From Paludibacteraceae bacterium (GTDB lineage: Bacteria > Bacteroidota > Bacteroidia > Bacteroidales > Paludibacteraceae), in NCBI GenBank assembly GCA_017551025.1, contig JAFZNG010000024.1, forward strand, positions 1-42,641: 42,641 nucleotides of DNA, read 5' to 3'. Positions 159 through 42,017 of the stretch are shown piece by piece. The translations under genes and the position numbers were made by a program. The notes under the pieces were generated by a model. It saw only the letters and a program-made list of their open reading frames with translations, ran no database searches and was not told the DNA's origin. The stretch's first letter is position 1. Each line of letters opens with the position of its first letter.

Positions 159-190
159 ATTAAAAATTAAAAATTAAGAATTAAAAATTG
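159..190. repeat. Degenerate heptamer array, unit ATTAAAA
   Basis: About four and a half tandem 7-bp units occur, each ATTAAAA or one substitution away from it. The array fills the spacer between two minus-strand genes and contains the TAA stop of the 56-residue protein. Its complement (TTTTTAA) is the unit of the arrays at 30113, 33889 and 38655. Confidence 0.85.
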
Positions 191-351
191 TCTTCGAGGA
201 AGTGGTCGAAGGTATAGTCGTCGGGTGACCAATCGTTGATGGCGCAGAGGTCGAGGTAGGTGGCATAGTCGGCGGCGCGTGCGTCGAGATACTGATCCCA
301 GCGAGCGTCGGAGAGGAGGTCGAGGGCGAAGTTTTCGTCATAGGTGTTCAT
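181..351 (-). CDS. Small acidic hypothetical protein (56 aa)
   Basis: I chose the ATG at 351, giving a 56-residue protein starting MNTYDENFALDLLSD, because everything upstream in this frame overlaps the 107-residue gene and has shadow-like composition. The product is acidic and rich in Asp, Tyr and Trp (for example NDWSPDDYTFDHFLEDNF at the C terminus) with no signal peptide or membrane segment. It overlaps the upstream gene by 14 bp, which suggests translational coupling. The family is not recognised. The compact acidic composition would fit a small partner or regulator of a neighbouring basic protein, but that is a guess. Confidence 0.55.
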   Translation of the reverse strand: MNTYDENFALDLLSDARWDQYLDARAADYATYLDLCAINDWSPDDYTFDHFLEDNF

Positions 352-661
352 AATATACATTGCCTGTTTTGGGAGTGACCATGCGCCAGCCCGGTTGCTC
401 GGTGGTGGTGTCGAAGCGGGTGTAGTACTGGTCGAAAGTGAGTACTTTATCGTAGGACTTCGGTGCGTTTTCCGCGATGGCACGAACGGGATCAAAGTGA
501 ACGAACTTACCGTTTTTCAATTTGCGATTTATGGAGCAATAGATTTTGCGCTGCTCGTCGAGCGTATAGGTTTCCCATAGTCGCGCGCAGTCAGCTTGTT
601 TCCCCGGTACGATGCCGTGGCTTTCGAGTAGTTGCCATATTTTTTCAAAGGAATCAGTCAT
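338..661 (-). CDS. Hypothetical protein (107 aa)
   Basis: The 107-residue cytosolic protein begins MTDSFEKIWQLLESHGIVPG. The first half looks helical and contains two Cys-flanked segments (GKQADCARLW and IYCSINRKLKNG). The second half is mixed, with FDQYYTRF and a C-terminal MVTPKTGNVYYEHL. No known domain is recognised. The helical start followed by a basic RKLKNGKF stretch could be a nucleic-acid or protein-binding fold, but no helix-turn-helix is clear. It lies downstream of the coiled-coil gene and overlaps the following 56-residue gene, so the three probably share one transcript from the promoter near 1425-1455. Confidence 0.6.
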   Translation of the reverse strand: MTDSFEKIWQLLESHGIVPGKQADCARLWETYTLDEQRKIYCSINRKLKNGKFVHFDPVRAIAENAPKSYDKVLTFDQYYTRFDTTTEQPGWRMVTPKTGNVYYEHL

Positions 662-681
662 AAAAATTAAAAGTTGTTGTT

Positions 682-739
682 GGTGTTGTTGTTACTACCA
701 TCTAAGGGGATTATAGGGGATAGTATTAACAACAACACC
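682..739. repeat. Long inverted repeat, 13-bp perfect arms
   Basis: GGTGTTGTTGTTA (682-694) pairs perfectly with TAACAACAACACC (727-739) around a 32-bp interior that contains GGGGATTATAGGGGA. It lies between the coiled-coil gene and the 107-residue gene. The arms are built from GTT/AAC triplets, so they could have grown by slippage. No U-rich tail follows on the minus strand, so it is not an ordinary terminator; it may be a processing or pausing structure in the polycistronic RNA. Confidence 0.6.
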
Positions 740-829
740 TTGAATTTTTTCTTTTACTTTTGGTTCTTTTCTTTTTCTTTGCAGAAACGATCTGCTTCGC
801 CGTATGCTTTTTCTTTTACGCTCTCCGGT

Positions 830-1309
830 TTAGAGGGCGTCGATAGAGATGTCGTCGTGGATACAATCAGACTTGGGCAGAAGTGTTGCCAGTGCCTGAT
901 CAGACGCCTTGACGTTGTTTTTGGCTTTTTTTACATCGCTCTGGGCAATCGCCAGTTGTGCTTCTGCGTTTTGCAATTTAGCGATGGCTATACGACGTTT
1001 CTCGAGTTCTAGTTCTACTTGCAGATCCTGAGCCGTCTTATCCTCTTCGGATTTCTTCGGAGAGCGGTAGTTCTCCCACGAGTACCACTTGTGGTGCTTG
1101 ACGTTGATGGGTGTGCCATGCCAATCAAGGTGCCCCTTGAACGCGGATCTATTCTCCTTGCGCAGGCGCTCCTTGACCAGGTCAGTCGCCTGTTCACGAA
1201 CGGCATCTGCCAGTTCTTGGAGTTGTTTCGAGCCTTTGGTTGCTGCACTCAGTTGCTTTACCTCGTCGCCCGCCTGGCGAACGTAGGTTTCCAGATTAAT
1301 TGTTGCCAT
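830..1309 (-). CDS. Hypothetical coiled-coil protein (159 aa)
   Basis: I place the start at the ATG at 1309 (MATINLETYVRQ); the frame stays open a little upstream, but that part lies in the repeat leader. The first 60 residues are helical and charged. A short aromatic, basic middle (FKGHLDWHGTPINVKHHKWYSW) follows. Residues from about 85 to 145 form a long amphipathic helix rich in Glu, Lys, Ala and Gln (EKRRIAIAKLQNAEAQLAI), typical of a coiled coil. The tail is acidic. There is no signal peptide and no recognised domain. It is the first gene after a good promoter (1425-1455) and heads the small accessory cluster. Its MATI start resembles that of the partial protein at the window edge. Confidence 0.65.
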   Translation of the reverse strand: MATINLETYVRQAGDEVKQLSAATKGSKQLQELADAVREQATDLVKERLRKENRSAFKGHLDWHGTPINVKHHKWYSWENYRSPKKSEEDKTAQDLQVELELEKRRIAIAKLQNAEAQLAIAQSDVKKAKNNVKASDQALATLLPKSDCIHDDISIDAL

Positions 1310-1322
1310 AATTAAATAACGA

Positions 1323-1375
1323 TTTAACGTGCGTAGCACCTGTTTAACAATTTAACAGTTTAACGTGCGTAGCAC
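1323..1375. repeat. Leader repeat: two 17-bp direct copies plus TTTAAC units
   Basis: The 17-bp word TTTAACGTGCGTAGCAC occurs at 1323-1339 and again at 1359-1375, and TTTAAC units recur in the 19 bp between them. The repeat sits in the 5' untranslated leader of the coiled-coil gene, between its promoter and start codon, so copy number could affect leader structure or translation. Confidence 0.75.
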
Positions 1376-1424
1376 TGATTAGTAATTATGGCTACCGGTA
1401 GCCTTGTTAGCTTGAATTCGGGTG

Positions 1425-1455
1425 CAAAGGTATATGGAAAAAACGAGACCCACAA
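1425..1455 (-). promoter_or_regulatory. Bacteroidetes-type promoter for the small accessory cluster
   Basis: On the minus strand TAccTTTG (1432-1425) is preceded, 20 bp upstream, by TTG (1455-1453), which matches the -7/-33 consensus of Bacteroidetes primary sigma factors. The -33 element lies in the loop of the upstream terminator, so the end of one unit and the start of the next overlap. Confidence 0.7.
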
Positions 1456-1466
1456 AAATGGGCCTC
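1438..1466 (-). terminator. Intrinsic terminator after the 141-aa gene
   Basis: On the minus strand GAGGCCCA and TGGGTCTC form an 8-bp stem (1466-1459 with 1452-1445, one G-U pair) around a 6-nt loop, followed closely by six Ts (1443-1438). It lies downstream of the 141-residue gene. Confidence 0.7.
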
Positions 1467-1542
1467 ATTTACGCAGAGAAACGCAGCATTTACGCAGAAA
1501 TGCGGTTAAACATGCGCACAAAAGCGCAGAAAAACGCAGATG

Positions 1543-1968
1543 TTATTTGCTGCGGTTGTCTTGGAATGTTCGGAGTTTGAAGGGCAAGCCAAAGTGTTCG
1601 TCCAGGAGTCGGTAGAGAAAAGCAGAGGAAAGGTTTTGGGTGTTGAGATAGCCCATCGATTCGTTGAAGCGAATGGTTTTGATGAGCTTGGGTGCGGAGG
1701 TGCATGCGCCCCGCAGTTCATCTTCCACGTTTTGCGCTACACCTTTGTCGTAGGCGGCTTGCGTGATACGTGAGAAGAGGGATGGATGGGTTACGGGTAA
1801 CGGGTTACCGGTTACGGGGTACAGCGAGCTGAGTTCCGAAGCAGAGACAACGTTGATGTTGATGATGATGTTGCCTTCAAAGTCCGGCAGACAATCGATG
1901 ATCAATTTTTTTGATTCATACGCTAAAAATTTTAGTTTAACAATTCTTTTATATACACGAACAAGCAT
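1543..1968 (-). CDS. Hypothetical protein (141 aa) with an internal heptamer array
   Basis: The protein starts MLVRVYKRIVKLKFLAYESK with a basic N terminus and a hydrophobic strand-rich segment (GNIIININVV, residues about 32-41). Residues about 50-61 (YPVTGNPLPVTH) are encoded by a GTTACGG-type tandem array at 1789-1822. The C-terminal 70 residues look like a compact helical domain (LIKTIRFNESMGYLNTQ, then FLYRLLDEHFGLPFKLR). I do not recognise the family. It has its own terminator downstream and no clear promoter, so it may be read with the ATPase gene upstream. The C-terminal domain looks conserved in style and the N-terminal part may be variable. Confidence 0.55.
   Translation of the reverse strand: MLVRVYKRIVKLKFLAYESKKLIIDCLPDFEGNIIININVVSASELSSLYPVTGNPLPVTHPSLFSRITQAAYDKGVAQNVEDELRGACTSAPKLIKTIRFNESMGYLNTQNLSSAFLYRLLDEHFGLPFKLRTFQDNRSK
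1789..1822. repeat. Heptamer array inside a coding sequence, unit GTTACGG
   Basis: About four tandem copies of GTTACGG with single substitutions and one extra base lie within the 141-residue gene and encode its residues 50-61. The same heptamer recurs in an unrelated gene, thiL, at 36071-36093. Confidence 0.75.
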
Positions 1969-2029
1969 CCGCGGATGGGATGCCTGTGTCGTGTTTTCTT
2001 ATGGGATGGGTGGGTGACAATGCGATTAG

Positions 2030-2066
2030 GTGTGAAAATGTTTGTGTAATTAATAGATTTTCACAC
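2030..2066. repeat. Palindromic repeat, copy 1, just after the ATPase stop
   Basis: Perfect 10-bp arms GTGTGAAAAT (2030-2039) and ATTTTCACAC (2057-2066) surround a 17-bp AT-rich loop. It abuts the TAA stop of the ATPase gene (2069-2067). A second copy of the same length, with the same loop size and 28 of 37 identical positions, lies just upstream of the ATPase start at 3513-3549. Confidence 0.85.
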
Positions 2067-3497: not shown

Positions 3498-3512
3498 ATT
3501 TTGCCCTATTTG

Positions 3513-3549
3513 CTGTGAAAATGTTATTAATTAAAATAGATTTTCACAC
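3513..3549. repeat. Palindromic repeat, copy 2, in the ATPase 5' leader
   Basis: 9-bp arms TGTGAAAAT (3514-3522) and ATTTTCACA (3540-3548) surround a 17-bp loop. It lies between the predicted promoter (-7 at 3568-3561) and the start codon (3497), so it is both a possible operator and an RNA hairpin. It matches the copy at 2030-2066 in arm sequence and loop length. Confidence 0.85.
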
Positions 3550-3560
3550 GTAATCGGCTG

Positions 3561-8834: not shown

Positions 8835-8837
<3 letters not shown>
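8797..8837. other. Intra-operon hairpin between GH97 and InlB-repeat genes
   Basis: TGCGGCG (8803-8809) pairs with CGCCGCA (8816-8822) around a 6-nt loop, with a further outer pairing of TAACCC with GGGTTA that reaches the GH97 stop codon. On the transcript strand it is not followed by a U-tract, so it may stabilise the upstream mRNA or reduce downstream expression rather than terminate. Confidence 0.6.
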
Positions 8838-12867
<4,030 letters not shown>

Positions 12868-22568: not shown

Positions 22569-22603
22569 TACCTTTAACCAATAACCTTTAGCCTTTCGCC
22601 TTT
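22569..22603. repeat. Heptamer array, unit AAAGGCT (minus strand)
   Basis: Exactly five 7-bp units, on the minus strand variants of AAAGGCT, fill the spacer between hppA and the TonB receptor gene and reach the hppA stop codon. Similar words form an array inside porQ (39659-39693). Confidence 0.85.
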
Positions 22604-24809: not shown

Positions 24810-24849
24810 ATGATCTAATGTTTTAATGATAGAATGATCTAATTATAGG
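24810..24849. repeat. Octamer array, unit ATGATCTA
   Basis: Five tandem 8-bp units (ATGATCTA with substitutions) occupy the trxB-hppA spacer and overlap the TAA stop of trxB (24845-24843). Confidence 0.8.
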
Positions 24850-25778
24850 CTCTTTAGGTATTTATCGGCCTCGATTGCTGCCTTGCAACCCGATGCGGCG
24901 GCCACGATGGCCTGACGGTAATGCGGGTCGGCACAATCGCCGGCGGCAAAAACGCCGGGCACGTTGGTGCGCGGACTGTCGCCCTCGGTCAGGATATACC
25001 CTTCGGCGTCACGGGCTACGAAGTCCTTAAACAGGTCGGTATTCGGATGATGACCGATAGCCAGGAAGAAACCGTCGATAGCGATATGACGTACCGCCTC
25101 GTCCGGTTCGCCCTTACGGAATACCAAGTCGGCACCCTGCACCTTACCTTCACCCGTGAGTTGCAGGGTGTTATGCTCGAAGAGCACCTCTATCTTGGGG
25201 TTATTCAGCACACGTTCCTGCATGATTTGCGATGCACGCAGATAGGGTTTACGCACGATCATATAGACCTTTTCGCACAGGCCGGCCAAGTAGTTGGCCT
25301 CCTCGCATGCCGTGTCGCCACCACCTACGACCGCCACCGTCTTCTTGCGATAGAAGAAACCGTCGCACGTAGCACAGGCACTCACGCCGCGGCCACGATA
25401 CGTACGTTCGCTCTCCAGTCCCAGGTACTTGGCGCTGGCACCCGTAGCGATGATGACCGTATCGGCTTCGATGGGATCGGCCGAGTCATCTATCCATACG
25501 CGCTTAGGCGCACAGCCTAAGTCTACCTTCGTGACGATACCGGACACGAACTGCGTACCGAAACGCTCAGCCTGACGGCGCATGTCGTCCATCATCGTAA
25601 AGGGATCTACGCCGTCCGGGTAACCCGGGAAGTTCTCTACTTCGGTGGTCGTGGTCAGTTGGCCGCCTTGTTGCGGACCGTCAATCAGCACCGGATGCAT
25701 GTTAGCACGCGCCGCATAGATAGCAGCGGTATAACCTGCCGGTCCGGAACCGATAATCAAACAAGAAACTTTATTCAT
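24843..25778 (-). CDS. trxB: Thioredoxin-disulfide reductase
   Basis: The 311-residue flavoprotein has an FAD-binding GxGxxG-like start (LIIGSGPAGYTAAIYAARA), the redox-active CATC (C135 and C138), an NADPH-binding site (VAVVGGGDTACEEA) and the C-terminal FAD motif (GVFAAGDCAD). It transfers electrons from NADPH to thioredoxin in the cytoplasm. Length and motifs are canonical. The order ftsK-lolA-trxB is seen in other Bacteroidales. Confidence 0.96.
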   Translation of the reverse strand: MNKVSCLIIGSGPAGYTAAIYAARANMHPVLIDGPQQGGQLTTTTEVENFPGYPDGVDPFTMMDDMRRQAERFGTQFVSGIVTKVDLGCAPKRVWIDDSADPIEADTVIIATGASAKYLGLESERTYRGRGVSACATCDGFFYRKKTVAVVGGGDTACEEANYLAGLCEKVYMIVRKPYLRASQIMQERVLNNPKIEVLFEHNTLQLTGEGKVQGADLVFRKGEPDEAVRHIAIDGFFLAIGHHPNTDLFKDFVARDAEGYILTEGDSPRTNVPGVFAAGDCADPHYRQAIVAAASGCKAAIEADKYLKSL

Positions 25779-25803: not shown

Positions 25804-25835
25804 GACTAGACGACTAGAAGACTAGACGACTAGTT
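25804..25835. repeat. Octamer array, unit GACTAGAC
   Basis: Four exact tandem 8-bp positions (GACTAG followed by AC, AA, AC, TT) lie in the lolA-trxB spacer. Each unit contains TAG on one strand and CTA on the other, so it carries stops in several frames. Confidence 0.85.
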
Positions 25836-29702: not shown

Positions 29703-30119
29703 ATGAATCTGATTCTAATTTCAGCAGGCCTTGTGGGAGTCATAGCGCTGATAGCATCCGTGCTATTATTCTATATCTCCAAGGCGTTCCAAGTAGAGGA
29801 AGATCCGCGCATCGACCTGGTGCAAGCGGTCTTACCCGGAGCCAACTGCGGTGGATGCGGTTTTGCAGGTTGTCGTGCGTTTGCCGAAGCCTGCGTGAAA
29901 GCCGAGACACGCAACGGGCTGAGTTGTCCTGTAGGTGGTGAGCCCACGATGGACGAAGTAGAGAAAGTGCTTAAGCCGGCCGACGGCGAGGCAGACACGG
30001 GTACTGCCGCCGAGGGTGGTGAGAAGAAGGGATTTGATCCGGCCATCGCGGCTAAGATCAAAGCGTTACCGACGCCACGCGCCATCTTCCCGCAAGCGCT
30101 ACGTGCTATCAATTCTTAA
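29703..30119 (+). CDS. rnfB: RnfB, short form lacking the C-terminal ferredoxin domain
   Basis: The 138-residue protein has the RnfB N-terminal membrane helix (residues 3-24) and the first Fe-S domain with C49-x2-C52-x4-C57-x17-C75 (PGANCGGCGFAGC). RnfB normally continues with a domain carrying two CxxCxxCxxxCP clusters (E. coli RsxB is 192 residues; other RnfB proteins are longer). Here the sequence instead runs into an acidic Gly-rich linker and PTPRAIFPQALRAINS, then stops in a TTTTTAA heptamer array. Only 20 bp separate it from rnfC, so the missing domain is not nearby in another frame. RnfB normally accepts electrons from ferredoxin, so this subunit should have altered or split function. 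Confidence 0.9.
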   Translation: MNLILISAGLVGVIALIASVLLFYISKAFQVEEDPRIDLVQAVLPGANCGGCGFAGCRAFAEACVKAETRNGLSCPVGGEPTMDEVEKVLKPADGEADTGTAAEGGEKKGFDPAIAAKIKALPTPRAIFPQALRAINS

Positions 30120-30137
30120 TTTTTAATTTTTAATTTC
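30113..30137. repeat. Heptamer array, unit TTTTTAA, at the rnfB 3' end
   Basis: Three and a half tandem 7-bp units contain the rnfB stop codon and fill the spacer to rnfC. Confidence 0.85.
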
Positions 30138-30139: not shown

Positions 30140-31483
30140 ATGAAAACATTCCATATAGGTGGAGTTCATCCACAGGACAATAAGCAATTCTCTGCCCACC
30201 AGGCCATCACGGAGTGTCCGCTGCCCCAGCAGGCGATTATCCCGCTGGTACAGCATATCGGTGCACCGGCCCAGGCGGTAGTAGAAGTTGGTAAGAAAGT
30301 GAAGGTAGGCGATCTGCTGGCCAAGGCCGGTGGATTCGTGAGTGCGAATATCGCCTCGCCGGTAAGCGGTACGGTCAGCAAGATTGACGCCGCAACCGAT
30401 GCGTGGGGTGCGCCGATGCAGGTAATCGTGATCGACGTGGAGGGCGACGAGTGGCTCGAGAGTATCGACCGCAGCACGGAGCTGAAGAGCGAGTGCACCT
30501 TAGAGCCCAAGGAGATCGTGGACAAGATTGCCGCAGCCGGTATCGTAGGTCTGGGTGGTGCATGCTTCCCGACCCACGTGAAGTTGCTGCCCCCTCCGGG
30601 CAAGACGGCCGAGGTGCTGATCATCAACGGTGTAGAATGTGAGCCGTATCTGACCTGCGACCATCAGTTGATGCTGGAGCACGGCGAGGAGATCGTAGTA
30701 GGTATTCGTATTTTGATGCGTGCGTTGAATGTCAACCGTGCCATCATCGGTATTGAGAACAACAAGAAAGACGCTATCCTGCACATGTCGGAACTCGTAA
30801 AGGACGTTCCGGGTATCGAGGTGCAACCGCTCAAGCTGAAGTATCCGCAGGGCGGTGAGAAGCAACTCATCGACGCATGTATCCATCGTCAGGTACCGAG
30901 CGGCGCACTGCCTATCGAGGTAGGAGCCGTTGTTGACAATGTAGCGACGGTATATGCCGTATATGAGGCTGTACAGAAGAACAAACCGCTCGTGTCGCGC
31001 GTCATGACCGTAACGGGTAAGGACGTGAAGCACCCGGGCAACTACCTGGTTCGTTTCGGTACGCCGATCGACGAGGTGATTCAGTTGGCAGGTGGTGTAC
31101 CCGAGGGTACGGGTAAGATTATCGGCGGCGGTCCGATGATGGGTCGCGCGATGGATCATACCGAAGGCATGCCGGCCAACAAGCGCCTGTCGGGTCTGCT
31201 CTTCCTGCCCGAAGCAGAGAGCCAGCGCCCGGAGGAGGATCCTTGTATCCGTTGCGCCAAGTGCGTTGACGCATGTCCGATGGGACTAGAGCCGTATCTG
31301 CTCTCCAAACTGTTTGCGTATGAGAAATGGGACGAACTGGAGAAGCACGACGTAATGGACTGCATCGATTGCGGTTGCTGCGTCTTCACCTGTCCGTCGC
31401 ACCGTCGTCTGCTGGATAATATCCGCCCGGCCAAGGCCAAGGTGGGAGGTATCCTGCGTGAGCGTGCCGCCGCTAAAAAATAG
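30140..31483 (+). CDS. rnfC: Rnf complex subunit C
   Basis: The 447-residue protein has the RnfC barrel-sandwich N domain, an NADH/FMN-binding fold with GVVGLGGACFPTH-like sequence (IVGLGGACFPTHVK), a SLBB region and two [4Fe-4S] motifs, CIRCAKCVDACP (from C369) and CIDCGCCVFTCP (from C408). RnfC is the peripheral subunit that exchanges electrons with NAD(H). It is full length, unlike RnfB upstream. A TTGAAAG heptamer array begins right at its stop codon. Confidence 0.96.
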   Translation: MKTFHIGGVHPQDNKQFSAHQAITECPLPQQAIIPLVQHIGAPAQAVVEVGKKVKVGDLLAKAGGFVSANIASPVSGTVSKIDAATDAWGAPMQVIVIDVEGDEWLESIDRSTELKSECTLEPKEIVDKIAAAGIVGLGGACFPTHVKLLPPPGKTAEVLIINGVECEPYLTCDHQLMLEHGEEIVVGIRILMRALNVNRAIIGIENNKKDAILHMSELVKDVPGIEVQPLKLKYPQGGEKQLIDACIHRQVPSGALPIEVGAVVDNVATVYAVYEAVQKNKPLVSRVMTVTGKDVKHPGNYLVRFGTPIDEVIQLAGGVPEGTGKIIGGGPMMGRAMDHTEGMPANKRLSGLLFLPEAESQRPEEDPCIRCAKCVDACPMGLEPYLLSKLFAYEKWDELEKHDVMDCIDCGCCVFTCPSHRRLLDNIRPAKAKVGGILRERAAAKK

Positions 31484-31543
31484 TTGAGAGTTGAAAGTTT
31501 AGAGTTGATAGAAGTTCTAAAGTTTATAGTTGAAAGTTAAAAT
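31484..31543. repeat. Heptamer array, unit TTGAAAG
   Basis: About eight tandem 7-bp units (TTGAAAG, TTGAGAG, TTTAGAG, TTGATAG and relatives, one slightly longer) fill the rnfC-rnfD spacer. TTGAAAG also occurs in the arrays at 36991-37018 and 38127-38158. Confidence 0.85.
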
Positions 31544-31552: not shown

Positions 31553-32539
31553 ATGGAAAAATTAATTGTTGCTCCGGCTCCTCACGCGCATAGCGGTGAC
31601 AGTGTTCGCCGGAACATGCTTTTGGTCATCGCGGCCTTGATTCCCGCCTACGCCGTTTCGGTGGTAGAGTTCGGTTGGGGCGCCCTGCTGACGATGGCTA
31701 TCAGCGTTGCCGCTTGTGTAGGTAGTGAGTGGTTGATCACCAAGTACCTGCTCAAGCAAAAGCCGACTATCTGTGATCTCTCGGCTGTGCTCACCGGTAT
31801 GCTTTTAGCATTCAACGTACCGAGCAATCTCGACTGGTGGATACTGGTCATCGGTGCGGTATTCGCAATCGGTGTCGGTAAGATGACCTTCGGCGGTCTG
31901 GGTCAGAACCCGTTCAACCCCGCCCTCGTAGGTCGTGTATTCCTGCTTATTTCGTTCCCTGCCCAGATGACAACCTGGCCGGTGGCTAAAGGTTTTGCTA
32001 CGGCGTATGTAGATGCCGAGACGGGTGCTACGCCGCTGGCTATCCTGAAGTCGGGTCTGAAGGGTTATGATCCGCAGTGGATGGACAAGTTGCCCGATCT
32101 CTGGGACGCCTTTATCGGTCAGATGGGCGGTTCGCTGGGTGAAGTCAGTGCACTGGCCCTATTGCTGGGCGGTCTGTTCCTGATCTGCACACGCGTCATC
32201 ACGTGGCATATCCCGGTTTCGATCCTCTGTACGGTAGCTATCTTCTCGCTCTGCGCAGCACCGGAAGGTATGGCTCCCTGTACGTTTATGGGTTACGAGC
32301 TGTTGACGGGTGGTCTGATGCTGGGTGCCTTCTTCATGGCAACCGACTATGTGACCAGTCCGATGTCGGCTTGGGGTAAAATAATTTTCGGTATCGGTAT
32401 CGGACTCATCATGATGGTGATTCGTACCTGGGGTGCTTATCCCGAGGGTATGTCGTTTGCTATCCTGATGATGAACGCCACCGTACCTTTGTTGAATCGT
32501 ATTCGTCCGCGTCATTTCGGCGAGAAAAAGAAAGCATAA
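31553..32539 (+). CDS. rnfD: Rnf complex subunit D
   Basis: The 328-residue membrane protein has about nine hydrophobic helices, the RnfD/NqrB motif GGLGQNPFNPALVGR and a flavinylation motif DAETGAT with acceptor Thr160, where ApbE-type transferases attach FMN. It forms part of the ion-translocating core. It ends 13 bp before rnfG. Confidence 0.96.
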   Translation: MEKLIVAPAPHAHSGDSVRRNMLLVIAALIPAYAVSVVEFGWGALLTMAISVAACVGSEWLITKYLLKQKPTICDLSAVLTGMLLAFNVPSNLDWWILVIGAVFAIGVGKMTFGGLGQNPFNPALVGRVFLLISFPAQMTTWPVAKGFATAYVDAETGATPLAILKSGLKGYDPQWMDKLPDLWDAFIGQMGGSLGEVSALALLLGGLFLICTRVITWHIPVSILCTVAIFSLCAAPEGMAPCTFMGYELLTGGLMLGAFFMATDYVTSPMSAWGKIIFGIGIGLIMMVIRTWGAYPEGMSFAILMMNATVPLLNRIRPRHFGEKKKA

Positions 32540-32552
32540 GGAGGACTGAATT

Positions 32553-33308
32553 ATGGCAAAATTAGAAAGTAGTTTTCGGAATATGGTGCTGAGTCTGGTA
32601 AGCATCTCCGTCGTAGCCGCAGTGGCATTGGCGGGTGTATTTCTGCTGACCAGTTCGCGCATCGAGAGCGAGAAACAGAAAAAGCAGCAACAGGCCATCA
32701 TGGACGTGCTGCCCCAGAAGGGTGCGGGTGCTGAGATTGCCGCACCGGAGCAAGTAGGCGAAGTCACGATCTACCGTGCCACGAAAGACGGTAAGGAGAT
32801 TGGCGCTGCCGTAGAGGTGAGTGAGATGGGCTTCGGCGGATTGCAGAAGATCATGGTAGGTTTTGACCCCGAGGGCAAGATCATCGACTATGCGATTCTC
32901 GACCAGCAGGAGACACCGGGCCTGGGAGATCATATCGTAGACTGGTTTAAGAATGCCGACAAGCCCGGCCAGAACATCATCGGTCGCAAAGCTGGTGAGT
33001 TCAAGGTATCGAAGGACGGCGGTGACGTAGATGCTATTACGGCCGCTACGATCTCGAGCAAGGCCTTCCTGCGTGCAATCAACAAGGCATACAAGGCCTA
33101 TATGGGTGATGCGGACGCACATAGCGGTGCCAGCAAGCAACAACATGCCGAGCCCGCTGAGGCAGAAGAGCACCACTGCCAGGGCCATCACGGCGAAGGT
33201 CACCAGTGCTCAGGTCATTGCCAGCACGGCGAGGGCCATAAGTGCCAGGGCCATTGCTCGCATCATGCACAAGAGAACCAATCCGGAAAGGAGGCCGACC
33301 ATGAGTAA
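32553..33308 (+). CDS. rnfG: Rnf complex subunit G with an unusual His/Cys-rich tail
   Basis: The 251-residue protein has one N-terminal membrane helix (VSISVVAAVALAGVFLL), the FMN-binding domain and the flavinylation motif DAITAAT with acceptor Thr166. Known RnfG proteins end soon after this domain. Here about 65 further residues follow, containing HHCQGHHGEGHQCSGHC and a second GEGHKCQGHC unit: 11 His and 5 Cys within about 35 residues (206-240). There is no CxxCH, so it is not a c-type heme site. Metal binding or redox buffering is plausible. The stop overlaps the rnfE start by 8 bp. Confidence 0.95.
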   Translation: MAKLESSFRNMVLSLVSISVVAAVALAGVFLLTSSRIESEKQKKQQQAIMDVLPQKGAGAEIAAPEQVGEVTIYRATKDGKEIGAAVEVSEMGFGGLQKIMVGFDPEGKIIDYAILDQQETPGLGDHIVDWFKNADKPGQNIIGRKAGEFKVSKDGGDVDAITAATISSKAFLRAINKAYKAYMGDADAHSGASKQQHAEPAEAEEHHCQGHHGEGHQCSGHCQHGEGHKCQGHCSHHAQENQSGKEADHE

Positions 33309-33888
33309 TAATCTGAAAACACTGACCAACGGTATTCTTCGCGAGAATCCTACCTTTGCCCTCGTGCTGGGTATGTGTCCTACGCTGGCTACGACGACCA
33401 GCGCTATGAACGGTATGTCAATGGGACTGGCTACGTTGTTTGTGCTGGTATGCTCCAATGTAGTGATATCTCTGCTGAAGAACCTGATCCCCGATAAGGT
33501 ACGTATCCCGGCTTTCATCGTAGTGATTGCTACGTTTGTAACGCTGGTGCAACTGCTGCTTCAAGCCTACGTACCGGTAGTATATGACAAACTCGGATTG
33601 TTTATCCCGCTGATTGTAGTGAACTGTATCGTGCTGGGTCGTGCCGAGGCGTTTGCGGCTAAGAACAGCGTAGGTCTGTCGGCACTCGACGGTCTGGGTA
33701 TGGGTCTGGGCTTCACGCTCTCGCTGACCGTGATCGGTATGATTCGCGAACTGCTGGGAACGGGTGCCGTATTCGGACTGCATATCTACAACGATCATTA
33801 TGCATCGCTGATCTTTGTGCTGGCTCCGGGTGCCTTTATCGCACTGGCTTATCTGATGGCAATTATGAACAAGATTGTCAAAAAGTAA
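33301..33888 (+). CDS. rnfE: Rnf complex subunit E
   Basis: The start is ATG 33301 (MSNNLKTLTNGILRENPTF); a longer upstream frame is a shadow of rnfG. The 195-residue membrane protein has six helices and the RnfE/NqrD signature GMCPTLATTTSAMNG, which helps coordinate the membrane Fe-S centre shared with RnfA. The 8-bp overlap with rnfG indicates translational coupling. Confidence 0.96.
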   Translation: MSNNLKTLTNGILRENPTFALVLGMCPTLATTTSAMNGMSMGLATLFVLVCSNVVISLLKNLIPDKVRIPAFIVVIATFVTLVQLLLQAYVPVVYDKLGLFIPLIVVNCIVLGRAEAFAAKNSVGLSALDGLGMGLGFTLSLTVIGMIRELLGTGAVFGLHIYNDHYASLIFVLAPGAFIALAYLMAIMNKIVKK

Positions 33889-33919
33889 TTCGTAATTTTT
33901 AATTTTTAATTTTTAATTG
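33889..33919. repeat. Heptamer array, unit TTTTTAA
   Basis: Four tandem 7-bp units, starting with TTCGTAA one base after the rnfE stop, fill the rnfE-rnfA spacer. Confidence 0.85.
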
Positions 33920-34544: not shown

Positions 34545-34578
34545 AAGAATGCGCGCGTACACCTACGCGCGCATTCTT
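34545..34578 (+). terminator. GC-rich hairpin after rnfA
   Basis: A perfect stem of about 14 bp (AAGAATGCGCGCGT with its complement) surrounds the 6-nt loop ACACCT. Only a weak U-tail (TTAT) follows, so it may act as a partial terminator or 3' stabiliser. Confidence 0.75.
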
Positions 34579-34580
34579 AT

Positions 34581-34622
34581 ACACCCTACACCATACACTA
34601 TACACTAAACACTAATACTATG
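34581..34622. repeat. Heptamer array, unit ACACTAT, before patB
   Basis: Six 7-bp units (ACACCCT, ACACCAT, ACACTAT, ACACTAA and relatives) end in TACTATG, which contains the patB start codon. The first three units recur exactly after patB at 35836-35856. Confidence 0.9.
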
Positions 34623-35800: not shown

Positions 35801-35835
35801 AAAAAGTGCCCCACACAACGTGAGGCACTTTTTTT
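35801..35835 (+). terminator. Terminator after patB
   Basis: AAAAAGTGCC (35801-35810) pairs with GGCACTTTTT (35824-35833), with CAC/GTG inside and a 5-nt loop, followed by a run of seven Ts. Confidence 0.85.
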
Positions 35836-35856
35836 ACACCCTACACCATACACTAT
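35836..35856. repeat. Second copy of the ACACTAT heptamer array
   Basis: 21 bp identical to 34581-34601 lie directly after the patB terminator, so patB is bracketed by the same three-unit array in the same orientation. Confidence 0.85.
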
Positions 35857-35930: not shown

Positions 35931-37001
35931 ATGCAACGAACAGAGATTTCGACAATGGGAGAATTCGGGTTGATACACCACCTGACCAAGGATCTGAAGC
36001 CGCAGCAACCCTCTACCATCCGAGGCGTAGGCGACGACTGCGCCGTGATGGATTTTAGTGAGGGGACACCGGTTACGGGTGACGGGTTACGGGTACTGAT
36101 GACCAGCGACATGTTGCTGGAGGGTATCCATTTCAACCTGGAATACGTACCCCTGAAGCACCTCGGCTACAAGGCTGCGGTGGTGAATTTCTCCGATATA
36201 TACGCTATGAACGGTACACCTACCCAGATCACCGTCTCGCTCGGCGTGAGCAAACGTTTCTCGGTAGAAGACTTGGAAGCACTATACAGCGGCATCCGAC
36301 TGGCCTGCGAGCGCTACGGCGTAGACCTGGTAGGCGGCGACACCTGCTCGAGCATGACCGGACTGACCATCGCCATCACTTGTCTGGGTACCGCCAAAGC
36401 GGAAGATATCGTCTATCGCAACGGGGCAAAACAGAACGATCTGATATGCGTCACCGGCAACCTCGGCACCGCCTATATGGGACTGCAGCTGCTCGAGCGT
36501 GAGCGATTAGCGGTGATGGGTGACGGCTCACGCGTGACGGCACAGCCCGACTTCGAGGGCAAGGAATACCTGCTGGAACGCCAACTCAAGCCCGAGGCAC
36601 GACGCGACATCATCCTCAAGCTCCGCGAAGCAGGCATCCGTCCGACAGCCATGATGGATATCAGCGACGGCCTATCGTCGGAACTGATGCATATATGCCG
36701 CCAATCGGGCGTAGGATGTGCCGTATACGAAGACAAACTGCCTATCGACTACCAGGCCGTCGTGCTCGCCGAGGAGATGAACCTGAATATCGTCACCTGT
36801 GCACTCAACGGCGGAGAAGACTACGAACTGCTCTTCACCTGCTCGCTCGACGACTATGAGAAACTCGTACCGATCGACGACATCTACCTCATCGGACATA
36901 TCACCAAACCCGAATTGGGCACACTGCTCGTCGGACGCAACGGCGAAGAGATTCCACTGAAAGCACAAGGGTTTAATGCCTTCCAAGAAAGTGAAAAATG
37001 A
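35931..37001 (+). CDS. thiL: Thiamine-monophosphate kinase
   Basis: The 356-residue protein has the ThiL/PurM-like motifs GVGDDCAV (about residues 32-39), TSDMLLEGIHF, the Bacteroidetes-typical VNFSDIYAMNGTP, and GGDTCSS for ATP-Mg binding. It phosphorylates thiamine phosphate to thiamine diphosphate. Residues about 47-56 (PVTGDGLRV), between GDDCAVMDF and TSDML, are encoded by a GTTACGG heptamer array and appear as an insertion in a loop that is shorter in other ThiL proteins as I recall them. The stop codon lies in another heptamer array shared with the next gene's start. Confidence 0.94.
   Translation: MQRTEISTMGEFGLIHHLTKDLKPQQPSTIRGVGDDCAVMDFSEGTPVTGDGLRVLMTSDMLLEGIHFNLEYVPLKHLGYKAAVVNFSDIYAMNGTPTQITVSLGVSKRFSVEDLEALYSGIRLACERYGVDLVGGDTCSSMTGLTIAITCLGTAKAEDIVYRNGAKQNDLICVTGNLGTAYMGLQLLERERLAVMGDGSRVTAQPDFEGKEYLLERQLKPEARRDIILKLREAGIRPTAMMDISDGLSSELMHICRQSGVGCAVYEDKLPIDYQAVVLAEEMNLNIVTCALNGGEDYELLFTCSLDDYEKLVPIDDIYLIGHITKPELGTLLVGRNGEEIPLKAQGFNAFQESEK
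36071..36093 (+). repeat. Heptamer array inside thiL, unit GTTACGG
   Basis: Three tandem GTTACGG-type units (the middle one GTGACGG) lie in frame within thiL and are free of stop codons. The same unit forms the array at 1789-1822 in an unrelated gene. Confidence 0.8.
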
Positions 37002-37018
37002 AAATTGAAAGGTGAAAC
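36991..37018. repeat. Heptamer array spanning thiL stop and GT start, unit NTGAAAN
   Basis: Four tandem 7-bp units (GTGAAAA, ATGAAAA, TTGAAAG, GTGAAAC) contain the thiL TGA stop (36999-37001) and the GTG start of the glycosyltransferase (37012). Each unit carries a potential start codon overlapping TGA. Confidence 0.85.
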
Positions 37019-38145
37019 AAAAGATTATCATATTAGGTACGGCGTATCCGTATCGTGGAGGATTGGCAACGTTCAACGAACGCCTGGCCCGGCAGTTCAT
37101 ACAGGAAGGCCACGAGGTGGAGGTATGGACCTTCACGCTCCAGTATCCCGGTTTCCTCTTTCCCGGTAAGACGCAGTACTCCCAAGAACAAGCACCGACA
37201 GATCTCCGGATACGGCGCGTACTGAACTCATGCAACCCGCTGAACTGGTGGCGCGTAGGACGGATGGTGCGCAAGGCTAAACCGGATCTACTCGTCTGCT
37301 GCTATTGGATGGCCTTCTTTGCCCCCGCCTATGCAACGGTTTGCCGTATCGCACGCCGCAATCGTAAGACCCGCTGCGTTGCCCTGGTGCACAACCTCTT
37401 TCCGCACGAGAAAGGCATGCTGGATAAACTGTTCGCTCCGATATTTGTGCGCAGCCAACAAGGTTTTGTGGCACTGAGTGACAGCGTCGTGTCCCAGATA
37501 CAAAGCCTAACCAAGTCGCCTGCCGTCGCATCGCCCCACCCGATCTATGATCATTACGGCGAGCGGATGACGAAAGCAGACGCTTGCCGTGCGTTGGGAC
37601 TGGACCCGATGAAACGCTACATGCTCTTCTTCGGACTGGTGCGCGCCTACAAAGGATTGGACCTACTGCTGGACGCCATGGGCAAGGTAAAAGACCTGTT
37701 GCCCGACGTACAACTGCTCATCGCGGGTGAGTTCTACGAAGACGAAGACAAATACCGCGAACAGATCACGAGAAACGGACTTCAGGACCGCGTCATCATT
37801 CGCAACGAGTTTATACCCGATGGCGACCTACGCAAGTACTTCGGAGCGGCCGACCTTATCGTACAACCCTATAAGAGTGCCACGCAGAGCGGCGTGACGC
37901 AGGTGGCCTTCCATTTCGAAAAACCGATGCTGGTCACCAACGTAGGCGGACTCGGCGAGATCGTACACCATGGCCGGATGGGCTATGCCGTAGCCCCGCA
38001 ACCGGAGGCCATCGCCGAAGCCCTACTGGACTACTTCAAAAACGACCGCCAGGAGGCGTTCACCCAATACCTCATCCGCGAGAAAACAAAATATGGATGG
38101 GACCGACTAACGAATCAATTCGTTGATTTAAAAATTGAAAATTGA
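37012..38145 (+). CDS. Glycosyltransferase family 4 (GT-B fold)
   Basis: The 377-residue protein starts at GTG (37012); a stop in frame just upstream excludes an earlier start. It has the N-terminal Rossmann half (IIILGTAYPYRGGLATFNERLA) and the C-terminal GT-B half with FFGLVRAYKGLDLLLDAM, FIPDGDLRKYFGAADLIVQPY and the donor-binding FEKPMLVTNVGGLGEIV. It most likely adds a sugar to a cell-envelope glycan; donor and acceptor are unknown. Its C terminus (DLKIEN) is encoded by a heptamer array that also supplies the following gene's start. Confidence 0.9.
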   Translation: MKQKIIILGTAYPYRGGLATFNERLARQFIQEGHEVEVWTFTLQYPGFLFPGKTQYSQEQAPTDLRIRRVLNSCNPLNWWRVGRMVRKAKPDLLVCCYWMAFFAPAYATVCRIARRNRKTRCVALVHNLFPHEKGMLDKLFAPIFVRSQQGFVALSDSVVSQIQSLTKSPAVASPHPIYDHYGERMTKADACRALGLDPMKRYMLFFGLVRAYKGLDLLLDAMGKVKDLLPDVQLLIAGEFYEDEDKYREQITRNGLQDRVIIRNEFIPDGDLRKYFGAADLIVQPYKSATQSGVTQVAFHFEKPMLVTNVGGLGEIVHHGRMGYAVAPQPEAIAEALLDYFKNDRQEAFTQYLIREKTKYGWDRLTNQFVDLKIEN

Positions 38146-38158
38146 AAGATGAGATGAA
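38127..38158. repeat. Heptamer array at the GT/KdsC junction, unit ATTGAAA
   Basis: Four to five tandem 7-bp units (TTTAAAA, ATTGAAA twice, then diverged copies) encode the last residues of the glycosyltransferase, contain its TGA stop (38143-38145) and both possible starts of the next gene. Confidence 0.75.
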
Positions 38159-38651: not shown

Positions 38652-38654
38652 TCA

Positions 38655-38686
38655 TTTTTAATTTTTAATTTTGAATTTTTAATTTG
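38655..38686. repeat. Heptamer array, unit TTTTTAA, ending in the ispD start
   Basis: Four tandem 7-bp units (TTTTTAA three times, TTTTGAA once) followed by TTTG, whose TTG (38684-38686) is the best start codon for ispD. Confidence 0.85.
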
Positions 38687-39349: not shown

Positions 39350-39353
39350 ATAG

Positions 39354-40466
39354 ATGCGCAGAAGACTATACATACTACTCATGATCCTGTTGCCCGTCAC
39401 GTTACAGGCACAGTATAAGGGAGGCGGCACGAGTGTGTTCACCTTCCTGGACCTGCCCGTGTCCTCGCGCATCAACGCCTTGGGCGGGTCGAACGTGAGT
39501 CTGCGCGACGGCGACGTCTCGATGGGTATGTGCAACCCCGCCCTGTTGGGCGAACGCACCGACAAAGTGCTGCAACTCAACTTCTCGTACTACCTGCCCG
39601 GCACGATGTTCGGGTCGGTACTGTACGGACACAACTTTGGTGAGGCCAAAGGCCTCATAAAGGCGAATAGCGAAGGGTTAGAGGCGAATGACAAGCCCCA
39701 GAAACCCAACTACTTCGCCGTAGGTATCCATTACCTGGACTACGGCTATATGCCCTATACCGATGAGACTGGTGCACAGACCGGTGGCCGGTTCGGAGCG
39801 AAAGATATCCTCATCGATGCGATGTATGCCCGTCAACTGGGGCCGTACTTCACGGTGGGCGTCTCGCTGAAGCCGGTCTATTCCATCTACGAGAGTTACC
39901 ACTCCTTCGCCCTGGGTGCGGATGTCGGTGCACACTACCAGACTAAGGACAGCACCTTCCAGATGGGTCTCGTGCTACGCAACATCGGTTGGCAGTTGGT
40001 AGGTTTCTATTCCGAGGAAGGCGGGTCGAATCACGAGATGCTGCCGCTCAACCTGGAACTGGGACTCAACTACCGGTTCAAGCATGCCCCGATACGGCTG
40101 CATATGACGCTGCACGACCTGCAGCAATGGAACCTGGGCTACGAGTGGAACGGACTGGAGAAAGACCCCACAACGGGGGATATCGTAGCGCACGCGGTGA
40201 AGTGGTACGACATGCTGTTCCGCCACACGATCTTCGCCATCGATATCGTGCCCCGGAGCGAACGCTTCTACCTCACGCTCAGTTACAACCACCGTCGCCG
40301 CGCTGAGATGAACCTCACCGACCAGCGTTCGCTGGCAGGTTTCGGTATCGGCGCCGGTGTACGTATCAAGCAGTGCCGGATCGGCTTTGGTATGAGCCAA
40401 CTCACCAAGTCCAATTTCTCGTACCAAGCGGGCATAAGTTTAGACATTAACTCATTGCTGAAATGA
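39354..40466 (+). CDS. porQ: Type IX secretion system protein PorQ
   Basis: The 370-residue protein has a signal peptide (MRRRLYILLMILLPVTLQAQ) and a barrel-like PorP/PorQ-type sequence with FLDLPVSSRINALGGSNVS at the N terminus and a C-terminal KSNFSYQAGISLDINSLLK. PorQ is an outer membrane component needed for type IX secretion and attachment of cargo. The porQ-cmk neighbourhood is conserved in Bacteroidetes. Residues about 102-114 (IKANSEGLEAND) are encoded by an AAAGGCG heptamer array and probably lie in a surface loop. The stop overlaps the cmk start by 4 bp. Confidence 0.9.
   Translation: MRRRLYILLMILLPVTLQAQYKGGGTSVFTFLDLPVSSRINALGGSNVSLRDGDVSMGMCNPALLGERTDKVLQLNFSYYLPGTMFGSVLYGHNFGEAKGLIKANSEGLEANDKPQKPNYFAVGIHYLDYGYMPYTDETGAQTGGRFGAKDILIDAMYARQLGPYFTVGVSLKPVYSIYESYHSFALGADVGAHYQTKDSTFQMGLVLRNIGWQLVGFYSEEGGSNHEMLPLNLELGLNYRFKHAPIRLHMTLHDLQQWNLGYEWNGLEKDPTTGDIVAHAVKWYDMLFRHTIFAIDIVPRSERFYLTLSYNHRRRAEMNLTDQRSLAGFGIGAGVRIKQCRIGFGMSQLTKSNFSYQAGISLDINSLLK
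39659..39693 (+). repeat. Heptamer array inside porQ, unit AAAGGCG
   Basis: Five 7-bp units (AAAGGCG, AATAGCG, AAGGGTT, AGAGGCG, AATGACA) lie in frame without stops. The AAAGGCG word matches the array in the hppA/TonB-receptor spacer (22569-22603). Confidence 0.65.
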
Positions 40467-41125
40467 ACAAGATAATTGTTGCTATCGACGGCTATTCGTC
40501 GTGTGGAAAATCGACCATTGCCAAGGCGCTGGCCAAGTATGCGGGATATACCTACGTAGATACGGGTGCGATGTATCGCGCCATAGGTCTATATACCCTG
40601 CGAGAGGGACTCAAGTCAGAACAAGACATCATTGCCGCACTGCCGCACGTGCAGATAGGTTTTATCCACGTAGACGGCATGCAGCACGTCACGCTCAACG
40701 GTGAGGATGTAGAAAGCCTGATCCGTACGCTGGAGGTGGGCAACCGCGCCTCGGAGGTGTCGCAGATCCGCGAAGTACGTCAGTATCTCGTAGCCCAACA
40801 GCAGAAAATGGGTGAGCAAAAAGGTATCGTCATGGACGGACGGGATATCGGTACGGTGGTCTTCCCCAAGGCCGAATTGAAACTCTTCCTCACCGCCTCG
40901 CCCGAGGTGCGCGCTCAGCGCCGATACGACGAACTAAGGGAGAAAGGCGAGACACCCGACTACGAGGCCGTACTCCGCGACGTCAACGAACGCGACTATC
41001 GCGATACGCATCGCGACGAGAGTCCGCTGCGCCAGGCCGAGGATGCCATCGTCGTAGATAACAGCCATCTGACCCGCGAAGAACAAATGAAAGTCATTTA
41101 TGATTTGTTCGATCGACACAAATAG
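40463..41125 (+). CDS. cmk: Cytidylate kinase
   Basis: The 220-residue protein has the P-loop GYSSCGKST (residues 10-18), YVDTGAMYRAIGLY, GRDIGTVVFPKAELKLFLTAS and ERDYRDTHRDESPL, all diagnostic of CMP/dCMP kinase. It makes CDP for RNA, DNA and lipid precursors. The start overlaps porQ (ATGA) and its 3' end overlaps ispH by 26 bp in another frame, as often seen in this gene cluster. Confidence 0.96.
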   Translation: MNKIIVAIDGYSSCGKSTIAKALAKYAGYTYVDTGAMYRAIGLYTLREGLKSEQDIIAALPHVQIGFIHVDGMQHVTLNGEDVESLIRTLEVGNRASEVSQIREVRQYLVAQQQKMGEQKGIVMDGRDIGTVVFPKAELKLFLTASPEVRAQRRYDELREKGETPDYEAVLRDVNERDYRDTHRDESPLRQAEDAIVVDNSHLTREEQMKVIYDLFDRHK

Positions 41126-42017
41126 CGGATTTTGTTTTGGCGTGACAAGCGCCATCGAGAAGGCGGAACAGGAACTACAGCACGGACCGCTATGCTGTCT
41201 GGGGGATATCGTGCATAACGGTCAGGAATGTGCCCGCCTGGAACAACTGGGTCTGCGCACCATCGACTACGACGACCTACGTACGCTCCATCGAGCCCGT
41301 GTACTGCTGCGTGCGCACGGCGAACCGCCCAGTACCTACTGGATAGCCCGTCAGCGCGGACTGGAAATAATAGATGCCACCTGTCCGGTCGTCAAGAAAC
41401 TCCAGGACCGTATCCGTGTCTGCTACGAGCAACACCGTGCAGACGAAGCGCAACCGCCCCAGATCGTCATCTACGGTCAGCGCGGCCATGCCGAAGTGAT
41501 CGGACTGGAAGGTCAGACCAACAACACAGCCATCGTGATCGAATCAGTTGATGAAATCGACCGACTGGACTTCTCGCGACCGATCTATCTCTTCTCTCAG
41601 ACCACGAAAAGCGTAGAGGGTTTCAAAAGCCTCGTTGAGGCGATTAAGGCGCGCCGGTCGTCATTACGTCATAACGACATGACGTCATTACAAGAAGAAA
41701 ATGGTGCGCCTTTTGAATACCACGATACGATTTGCCGCAACGTAGCCAACCGCGTAGCCCGACTGCAGGACTTCGCGCGGTCGCAGGACCTGGTTATCTT
41801 TGTAGGCGGCAAGAAGAGCAGTAACGCGCGCGTATTATATAATAAGTGTAAGGAAGCTAATCCGAATACGATCTTCATCTCCTCGCCCGACGAACTGGCC
41901 GATCAACTGCCGCAATTAGATATAGAAAAAACAAATCCCGACTATCGAGTCGGGATCTGCGGTGCCACCAGCACACCTACGTGGCTGATGGAAGCTTGTA
42001 AAGCACTTCTTACTTAA
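41100..42017 (+). CDS. ispH: 4-hydroxy-3-methylbut-2-enyl diphosphate reductase
   Basis: The 305-residue protein starts [15 protein letters not shown] and has the three Fe-S ligand cysteines: C12 in GFCFG, one in [10 protein letters not shown] and one in [11 protein letters not shown]. It makes IPP and DMAPP in the last MEP step. Between the second and third Cys a segment [13 protein letters not shown] (about residues 186-198) is encoded by an octamer array and lengthens a loop that is shorter in other IspH proteins. The 3' end contains a terminator for the convergent gap gene, and the two genes overlap by 8 bp at their stops. Confidence 0.95.
41659..41691 (+). repeat. Octamer array inside ispH, unit CGTCATTA
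   Basis: Four tandem 8-bp units (CGTCATTA, CGTCATAA, CGACATGA, CGTCATTA) lie in frame in ispH. The unit is the reverse complement, rotated, of the CGTAATGA octamer at 11034-11067. Confidence 0.8.
41925..41956 (-). terminator. Terminator of gap, located inside ispH
   Basis: On the minus strand ATCCCGACT and AGTCGGGAT form a perfect 9-bp stem (41956-41948 with 41943-41935) with a 4-nt loop, followed after a few bases by six Ts (41931-41926). It lies about 55 bp past the gap stop and within the ispH coding sequence. Confidence 0.85.

Follow-up and report, generated by a model that had tools for sequence, protein, structure and literature searches.

Dispersed heptamer repeats are familiar from cyanobacteria and some other groups, where they are described without a demonstrated mechanism. 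The arrays treated here most resemble the heptamers of filamentous cyanobacteria, known as short tandemly repeated repetitive (STRR) sequences. Here we describe degenerate tandem arrays in a contig of 42,641 nucleotides (hereafter the window; JAFZNG010000024.1) from the Paludibacteraceae bacterium assembly GCA_017551025.1, and in its relatives. The unit is mostly 7–11 bp and the whole array mostly 20–40 bp. The arrays draw on a small vocabulary of units that differs among genomes of the genus, they lie in spacers and, in frame, in conserved enzyme genes, they are present, absent or replaced at the same site in related species, they change by whole units, and stop codons stand in register with them.

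Degenerate, dispersed and tandem 7-bp units are the feature shared with STRR sequences (38 noncoding and 24 coding arrays of period 7 here). Further likenesses are described in PMC4476775: fixed and free positions within the unit (the Nostoc trnL repeats TDNGATT and NNTGAGT), repeats in a functional gene (the P6b stem of the Nostoc trnL intron), and replacement of one repeat class by another at a site. The difference is that those repeats belong to cyanobacterial intron RNA, whereas here dozens of units, vocabularies differing among species and internal segments of essential enzymes are involved, in Bacteroidales. The TAACTGA repeats of Beggiatoaceae, cyanobacteria and five Bacteroidetes including Paludibacter (MacGregor 2015, PMC4679880) are likewise intergenic and near starts, overlap stop codons, give stops in all frames and have some coding copies. 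They have a single fixed unit, and TAACTGA is not among the 12 heptamer clusters found here; their coding copies are mainly at protein ends, whereas here arrays also lie within conserved domains. The GGGAATC and GGGGA(T/C)T repeats of Xanthomonas and Nostoc (Rehm 2015, PMC4692102) are also dispersed, degenerate heptamers that vary in length and sequence among close species, but they represent one G-rich, quadruplex-forming unit, whereas there are many units here, of which the commonest are AT-rich.

Among other mobile or repeated sequences, Rickettsia palindromic elements (RPE; review PMC10969869) share the property of being short, in-frame repeats in unrelated metabolic genes, with several families, but they are about 150 bp long and palindromic, whereas the present arrays are direct repeats of 20–40 bp without inverted ends. 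The arrays listed below also differ, as direct repeats, from miniature inverted-repeat transposable elements (MITE), RPE and repetitive extragenic palindromic (REP) sequences, although a few arrays in relatives have inverted halves. From a diversity-generating or telomerase-like retroelement they differ in that no match to a reverse transcriptase was found in the genome of the window (95% complete). With simple repeats born of slippage they share whole-unit copy variation (18 of 117 comparisons), but not locally derived, locus-unrelated units. The initial annotation, made from the letters of the window, knew of no description of locus-specific 7/8-bp boundary arrays in Bacteroidales. This has to be narrowed by the heptamer arrays published for five Bacteroidetes including Paludibacter (PMC4679880), but among the open-access papers listed for heptamer repeats in Bacteroides, Bacteroidetes or Bacteroidales none was seen to describe multi-unit arrays that swap at spacers and enzyme loops.

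Abundance and Distribution of the Arrays

The window is one (C19) of the 36 contigs of a 1.94-Mb, 95%-complete genome (the focal genome). Together with 20 fetched stretches it forms a focal sample of 399 kb, about one-fifth of the genome, with 152 spacers. Genes were called as longest open reading frames (ORFs) and not with a trained gene finder, which makes the starts, and the calls of short genes, approximate. The best period of each spacer was taken from an autocorrelation score (match +1, mismatch −2), with dinucleotide shuffles as controls. Of the 19 spacers called in the window, 7 scored best at period 7 or 8 (0.0 in shuffles). Tandem Repeats Finder detected period-7 or period-8 arrays at about 13 spacers or gene boundaries (158–189, 1343–1364, 11034–11067, 22585–22604, 25804–25833, 30111–30136, 31482–31542, 33893–33918, 34578–34614, 35835–35853, 36988–37017, 38131–38147 and 38654–38685), which is far above chance and bears out the dozen or more that had been noticed at first. 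Another array, ATGATCTA (about 24810–24840), was seen by eye and is under the threshold of both detectors.

Among the 152 focal spacers, the best period was 7 in 33 (0.4 in shuffles) and 8 in 7 (0.3), against 4 each for periods 9 and 11 and none for period 6. In 604 spacers from 72 loci of sister species (L034–L105) the counts were 65 for period 7, 32 for period 8, 38 for period 11, 21 for period 14 and 1 for period 6, whereas 20 further families of the order, with 129 spacers in all, gave 2 for period 7 and 1 for period 8. The arrays are thus real and strongly enriched in the genus, with period 7 foremost. The initial expectation that periods 7 and 8 exceed 6 and 9 is confirmed in the focal sample (33 and 7 vs. 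0 and 4); a strict period of 7 or 8 is not, as periods 9, 11 and 14 occur besides, and period 11 is common in the sister species. The period-11 arrays (38 of 604 spacers, L034–L105) have a frequency like that of period 8 and may form a separate class.

Under a stricter threshold, the focal sample has 38 period-7 arrays in 18.9 kb of noncoding DNA. A congener, G028, has none in 6.7 kb of noncoding DNA (80 kb fetched), so the load varies within the genus. The 20 other families pooled have 5 in 29 kb, plus 1 coding array. Small samples were taken from seven genomes outside the genus, picked for high counts of an AATT pattern. Apart from G306, which belongs to another order of the class and has 3 noncoding period-7 arrays in 3.7 kb, each of them has 0 or 1. 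The more distant loci L107, L108 and L113 have arrays between rnfE and rnfA too. The pattern AATTNNN, four times in tandem, has 217 matches in the focal genome, compared with 20 for the reversed pattern, and 0 to 177 in 60 congeners (overlapping matches included). Counts are as high in some other families of the order (G052 286, G095 275, G046 191, G096 104), and therefore the unit is not confined to the genus. Across a draw of 296 genomes of the phylum, the focal one included, the pattern is present in 124, those other than the focal one having at most 62 matches. Counts for ACACNNN, four times in tandem, are 115 in the focal genome, 109 in G075, 56 in G027, 42 in G060 (another family) and at most 18 in the rest of 101 genomes.

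A Small Vocabulary of Units Is Shared Between Loci

The units had been thought specific to each locus, and this did not hold. The 87 heptamer arrays of the focal sample fall into 12 clusters, the largest being AAAAATT (41), AACTCTC (12), ACACCAT (9) and AACCCGT (6). Sharing of units between pairs of these arrays is 0.254, compared with 0.089 for letter-shuffled units, and within the window the arrays at 30111, 33893 and 38654 and, on the reverse strand, 158 have one common unit. Sharing is also higher within a genome (0.175) than between genomes of the genus (0.055), as measured in five array-bearing genomes with the focal arrays downsampled to 20 of 100; 0 of 500 label permutations equaled it.

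Sharing extends to longer strings. The AAG string AATTAAAAATTAAGAATTAAAAATT occurs in the window (165) and at two more focal loci with unrelated flanks. The ACG-ended form, with ACGAATT, is found at four focal loci, always at the end of the array. Relatives have it eight times, six of these at the end, and several of the eight places are orthologous. In the AATTAAA family, four-unit variant words are common to 15 pairs of arrays, against 9.0 when the order of units is shuffled (P = 0.03) and 3.1 when units are dealt (P = 0.0015).

Variation is uneven over the positions of the unit in 12 of 13 family tests (chi-square P from 1.4e-2 to 1.3e-24); the exception, GGTGATT in the focal genome, is not significantly so (P = 0.085). 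The seven positions of AATTAAA have 0, 1, 1, 14, 31, 11 and 13 changes, AATCCGAGT varies only at positions 2, 5 and 8, and TACACCA mainly at 6–7. Such position-specific variation could be explained by descent from a few unit alleles or by protein binding. At 12209–12283 of L108 and in the rnfC-rnfD spacer of L082 and L100, arrays consist of two inverted halves (for example TTGAGAG.. followed by CTATCAAC..), the transcript of which could fold into a long hairpin like the P6b stem of Nostoc trnL.

Orthologous Sites Are Empty, Filled or Hold Another Repeat

The thioredoxin reductase was compared in 38 full-length species (the window and 37 relatives). The loop before the FAAGDC motif is short in 21, including the window, and longer, mostly repeat-filled, in 17. 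The long loops hold peptides from GGGTTAC, GATTGGT, CGGTGAG or ATTTGTC heptamers, from an octamer (1–3 copies of KCENAQMG), from a putative GC-rich palindromic element or from other sequence, which makes at least six repeat types, the palindromic one judged from its peptide only. On a tree of the remaining protein (one tree, made by a quick method, with 4 of 35 inner branches well supported) at least 12 changes are required for eight states.

Similar loops are found in DXS, for which 29 of 30 loci were aligned. Among the species parsed, loop 1 holds an array in 6 of 28, with 6 consensus units; the figures for loop 2 are 10 of 28 with 9 units and for loop 3, 5 of 23 with 4 units, some of these units being close kin; the loop is within 2 aa of the shortest in 7, 12 and 9 species, respectively. 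Other DXS loops have palindromic elements or unrecognized sequence. The dxs loops of L157, L162, L164 and L167 contain a GC-rich palindromic element (CTCCCCGACCCTCCCCTCAAGGGAGGGAG and its kin), which encodes SPTLPSREG, and where L036 has a GGGTTAC array, L035 has an element of the CTCCCCGACCCTCCCCTCAAGGGAGGGAG type. Elements of this kind use loops and sites that hold heptamer arrays in other species.

Spacers of the rnf operon, the gene letters of which we presume from family and order, show the same range of states; the rows of the rnfB-rnfC spacer are the least reliable and enter no count. Of 70 rnfC-rnfD spacers, 53 have an array at a low threshold, with changing units, and the final ~15 nt before the ATG are kept in L035 and L036. 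An rnfE-rnfA spacer of at most 5 nt was seen in 23 of 66 relatives and one filled by an array in 11. Two sister-species cases are clear: L076 has an AATTTTT array between these genes, and L088 and L092 have GCATC there; L068 has 29 nt with TAAATCG repeats, and L071 has taaTTatg at that place. Between rnfD and rnfG, 63 of 70 relatives retain GGAGG and 3 have an array. In the window (32539–32553) and relatives this spacer is a conserved GGAGG site, and the group to which the window belongs is not known to make much use of GGAGG-like sites. Among named relatives, the closest RnfD proteins are in Paludibacteraceae and Bacteroidales genomes from metagenomes, many from ruminant guts. In nine loci (L043, L045, L049, L057, L058, L067, L070, L080 and L081) the ftsK-lolA interval has a recurrent AAATCAGACT..CGAGACA..ATCGAGAGAG after the end of the upstream gene.

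In comparisons with sister species (about 88–96% identity), 117 of 156 could be placed, where one array may enter repeatedly. The unit and the length are alike in 43, the unit is alike and the length differs in 38 (by whole periods in 18 and otherwise in 20), a different repeat is present in 14, and no repeat in 22.

Placement in Spacers, at Stop Codons and Inside Genes

The arrays of the window, with the thioredoxin reductase gene, are as follows.

158–189: period-7 array of AATTAAA, 4.6 copies; its 25-nt variant string AATTAAAAATTAAGAATTAAAAATT is the one recurring at two unrelated focal loci
1343–1364: period-8 array of TTTAACAA, within a long spacer
1788–1822: period-7 array of GGGTTAC, inside a putative 141-aa ORF (1543–1968, minus strand)
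10987–11005: period-7 array of AAAGACA, at the 5' end of the GH97 gene (8835–11018, minus strand)
11034–11067: period-8 array of CGTAATGA, between the GH66 and GH97 genes
22575–22604: period-7 array of CCTTTAG (AAAGGCT on the gene strand), with the stop codon of the adjacent gene in register
24843–25778, minus strand: thioredoxin reductase gene, with the empty loop DGDSPR-TNVPG
25804–25833: period-8 array of GACTAGAC, between the lolA and thioredoxin reductase genes
30111–30136, plus strand: period-7 array of AATTTTT, upstream of rnfC, with the stop codon of the preceding gene (rnfB by position) inside it
31482–31542, plus strand: degenerate period-7 array of AGTTGAA, between rnfC and rnfD; relatives have other units
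33885–33918, plus strand: period-7 array of TTCGTAATTTTTAATTTTTAATTTTTAATT, between rnfE and rnfA, identical in L034 and L047
34578–34615, plus strand: period-7 array of TACACCA/TACACTA, after rnfA
35835–35853, plus strand: period-7 array of TACACCA, upstream of thiL
36071–36094, plus strand: period-7 array of GGTTACG, inside thiL, in a segment (TPVTGDGL region) with eight residues more than ThiL 1vqv
36988–37017, plus strand: period-7 array of AAAGTGA/AAATTGA, spanning the thiL stop and the glycosyltransferase start
38131–38147, plus strand: period-7 array of AAAATTG, at the end of the glycosyltransferase gene
38654–38685, plus strand: period-7 array of ATTTTTA, upstream of ispD
41659–41691, plus strand: period-8 array of CGTCATTA, inside ispH and in frame, in a stretch mostly gapped in IspH 3dnf

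Genes near these arrays belong to a GH97/GH66/Sus locus or encode H+-pyrophosphatase and thioredoxin reductase; others are lolA, ftsK, rnfC, D, G, E and A, thiL, ispD, cmk and ispH. The arrays thus occur on both strands and in spacers of operons with unrelated function, as had been proposed. Their restriction to gene boundaries, also proposed, applies to about 13 of them but not to the arrays in thiL (a heptamer) and ispH (an octamer), nor to 24 arrays in long ORFs of the focal sample. The last codons and the stop of the frame before rnfC (rnfB by position; 29703–30119, only 138 aa) come from the AATTTTT array at 30111–30136, which may have set the C terminus of the protein.

The expected enrichment in spacers was found: there are 38 period-7 arrays in 18.9 kb of noncoding DNA vs. 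24 in 326.6 kb of long-ORF DNA. Codirectional spacers (10,147 nt in total) hold 39 arrays, whereas divergent and convergent ones (6,967 nt) hold 7 (P = 1.8e-4). Of the 39, 28 end within 10 nt of the called start, as placed by the longest ORF, or overlap it. The AATTAAA arrays in codirectional spacers are split 11 vs. 5 between strands (P = 0.21).

A stop codon in phase with the following array was observed in 25 of 47 focal cases (4.1 expected from unit content) and in 37 of 133 in relatives (7.6 expected). This fit is partly trivial because many units contain stops. When the coding DNA upstream is nonperiodic, the stop fits the phase in 10 of 26 focal cases (1.9 expected) and 23 of 100 in relatives (5.3 expected), with 0 of 5000 Monte Carlo draws as high. 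In these cases the array starts at the stop codon itself, as if TAA, TGA or TAG had been a 3-nt primer or anchor. Selection of periods that are not multiples of 3, to give stops in all frames, was considered separately; it fits periods 7, 8 and 11 in spacers, and it is not the cause because period 7 leads in coding DNA too.

Focal ORFs of at least 250 aa (326.6 kb) contain 24 period-7 arrays vs. 0 after codon shuffling. For other periods the counts are 0 at 8, 10 and 11, 6 at 9, 2 each at 12, 14 and 15, and 1 at 6. Array-bearing genes above curated cut-offs, with the arrays in frame, include dxs (four arrays), rho, gltX, rlmN, mfd and a gene for a wecE-type aminotransferase; two scanned array genes, for a carboxypeptidase and a MurU-like transferase, fell below their cut-offs. 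In a DXS model of fair quality (mean pLDDT 70), the repeat residues 313–321 and 489–499 are nearly all predicted as coil, and the repeat peptides 132–144 and 531–541 run from the end of a helix into coil, so that the model weakly suggests a placement in loops. For annotation, KLKIKN, QLSTLNS, TPYTLH and SPITNHQ in these proteins should be regarded as repeat-derived peptides, not as conserved motifs.

Origin of the Arrays

The explanation that we favor, and to which we give about even chances, is a population of very short tandem repeats that spreads itself through the whole genome, new copies arising by template switching and being modified afterwards by slippage and selection. A replication fork that stalls or restarts would switch, via ~3–5 nt of microhomology, to an array elsewhere, the microhomology often being the TAA, TGA or TAG of a gene end. 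Some 20–40 nt of the donor array would be copied before a switch back, and slippage would afterwards alter the copy number. Selection would purge copies that break reading frames, promoters or terminators, and the survivors would collect in short operon-internal spacers and tolerant protein segments. We infer the template-switch step; microhomology-primed copying as such requires no dedicated enzyme. Fork template switching, slippage and selection would together yield small blocks, unrelated flanks, no inverted ends, anchoring at stop codons and accumulation at harmless sites.

Several observations weigh against this explanation. The block-copy test gives weak support outside the AATTAAA family, as TACACCA and AGTTGAG arrays have no excess sharing of variant words (P > 0.5). 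The stop-register counts across the genus are not all phylogenetically independent. Array spacers changed in length no more often than array-free ones in a small sample of sister species (8 of 13 vs. 15 of 29, P = 0.74), which goes against the initial expectation of copy-number change, for which the whole-unit differences in 18 of 117 comparisons speak. The nearest pairs found in the species-level collections are 95–96% identical, and no strain-level pair that would show donor, junction and direction of an event was among them. The position-specific variation could reflect protein binding, and the single Y1_Tnp match described below makes a transposase possible.

The simplest alternative is local replication slippage, with a polymerase bias to loops of 7–8 nt and subsequent drift, as proposed for heptamers by Mrazek 2007 (as cited in PMC4679880 and PMC4692102) and by the initial annotation. 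The strict period, the whole-unit copy changes in 18 of 117 comparisons and the absence of shared variant order in two of three families tested agree with it, and heptamers are the most abundant longer class of simple repeats in most genomes, according to PMC4679880. Slippage surely acts on copy number, but it is insufficient alone because 12 words are shared genome-wide and one word replaces another at a single site. That units are shared within a genome and differ between genomes, that identical strings occur at unrelated loci, that unrelated repeats replace one another at one site, that copies lie in frame in genes, and that congener G028 has no period-7 array in 80 kb sampled all speak against it. 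MutS and RecA are present in the focal genome, hence neither was lost. We consider slippage and drift unlikely as a full account, and the templated insertion named as its alternative in the initial annotation is the better fit. It is very improbable that the arrays are assembly or metagenome artifacts. The focal genome is in 36 contigs and the named relatives are metagenome assemblies, but orthologous arrays with conserved flanks recur across independent assemblies, coding copies are in frame, and coding DNA has period 7 without periods 8, 10 or 11.

The units might instead be functional sites for an S1-, cold-shock- or Csr-like protein that binds RNA or DNA and acts on downstream translation, a role which MacGregor suggested for TAACTGA repeats (PMC4679880). 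The 28 of 39 codirectional arrays at or near called starts and the restriction of variation to particular positions in AATCCGAGT and TACACCA would suit such sites. We hold this to be improbable, however, as orthologous spacers are very short (rnfE-rnfA, 23 of 66 at most 5 nt, an array in 11) or hold other families, vocabularies differ among species, 24 of the 62 counted period-7 arrays lie within long ORFs, GGAGG is retained between rnfD and rnfG in 63 of 70 relatives and an array stands there in 3, and the strand bias of AATTAAA is 11 vs. 5 (P = 0.21). There is likewise a small chance of a dedicated enzyme that writes or moves the arrays, such as a short-template reverse transcriptase, an end-joining polymerase or a transposase. 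The impression of telomere-like, strand-skewed units of 7–8 nt, the peptides written into loops and the genome-specific vocabularies favor it, and the focal genome has one match to Y1_Tnp (38.6 bits, cut-off 23). Against it, RVT_1 has no match in the 95%-complete focal genome and none in 28 of 36 congeners searched, Ku was found in 0 of 61 genomes, Y1_Tnp is missing from many congeners, the array-bearing G034 and G014 among them, and the arrays have no inverted ends.

Beyond the self-spreading repeat population favored above, we tentatively raise, as a rather doubtful further claim, that a previously undescribed process may copy arrays of 20–40 nt to new sites. It would be rapid enough to alter many sites among species only 4–12% apart, would leave each species with a vocabulary of its own, place new in-frame peptides in loops of essential enzymes, and let unrelated words interchange at one loop. 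The genus offers sequenced species by the dozen and many arrays in each genome; its orthologous sites are in part empty and in part filled, families replace one another within genes, and stop codons carry a register signal. How heptamers move, and why the unit is 7 bp, is therefore directly testable. The loops also constitute a natural experiment on the acceptance of new peptide insertions by proteins. The occurrence of different words at the same places in related species points to a little-known way in which genomes copy tiny pieces of themselves.

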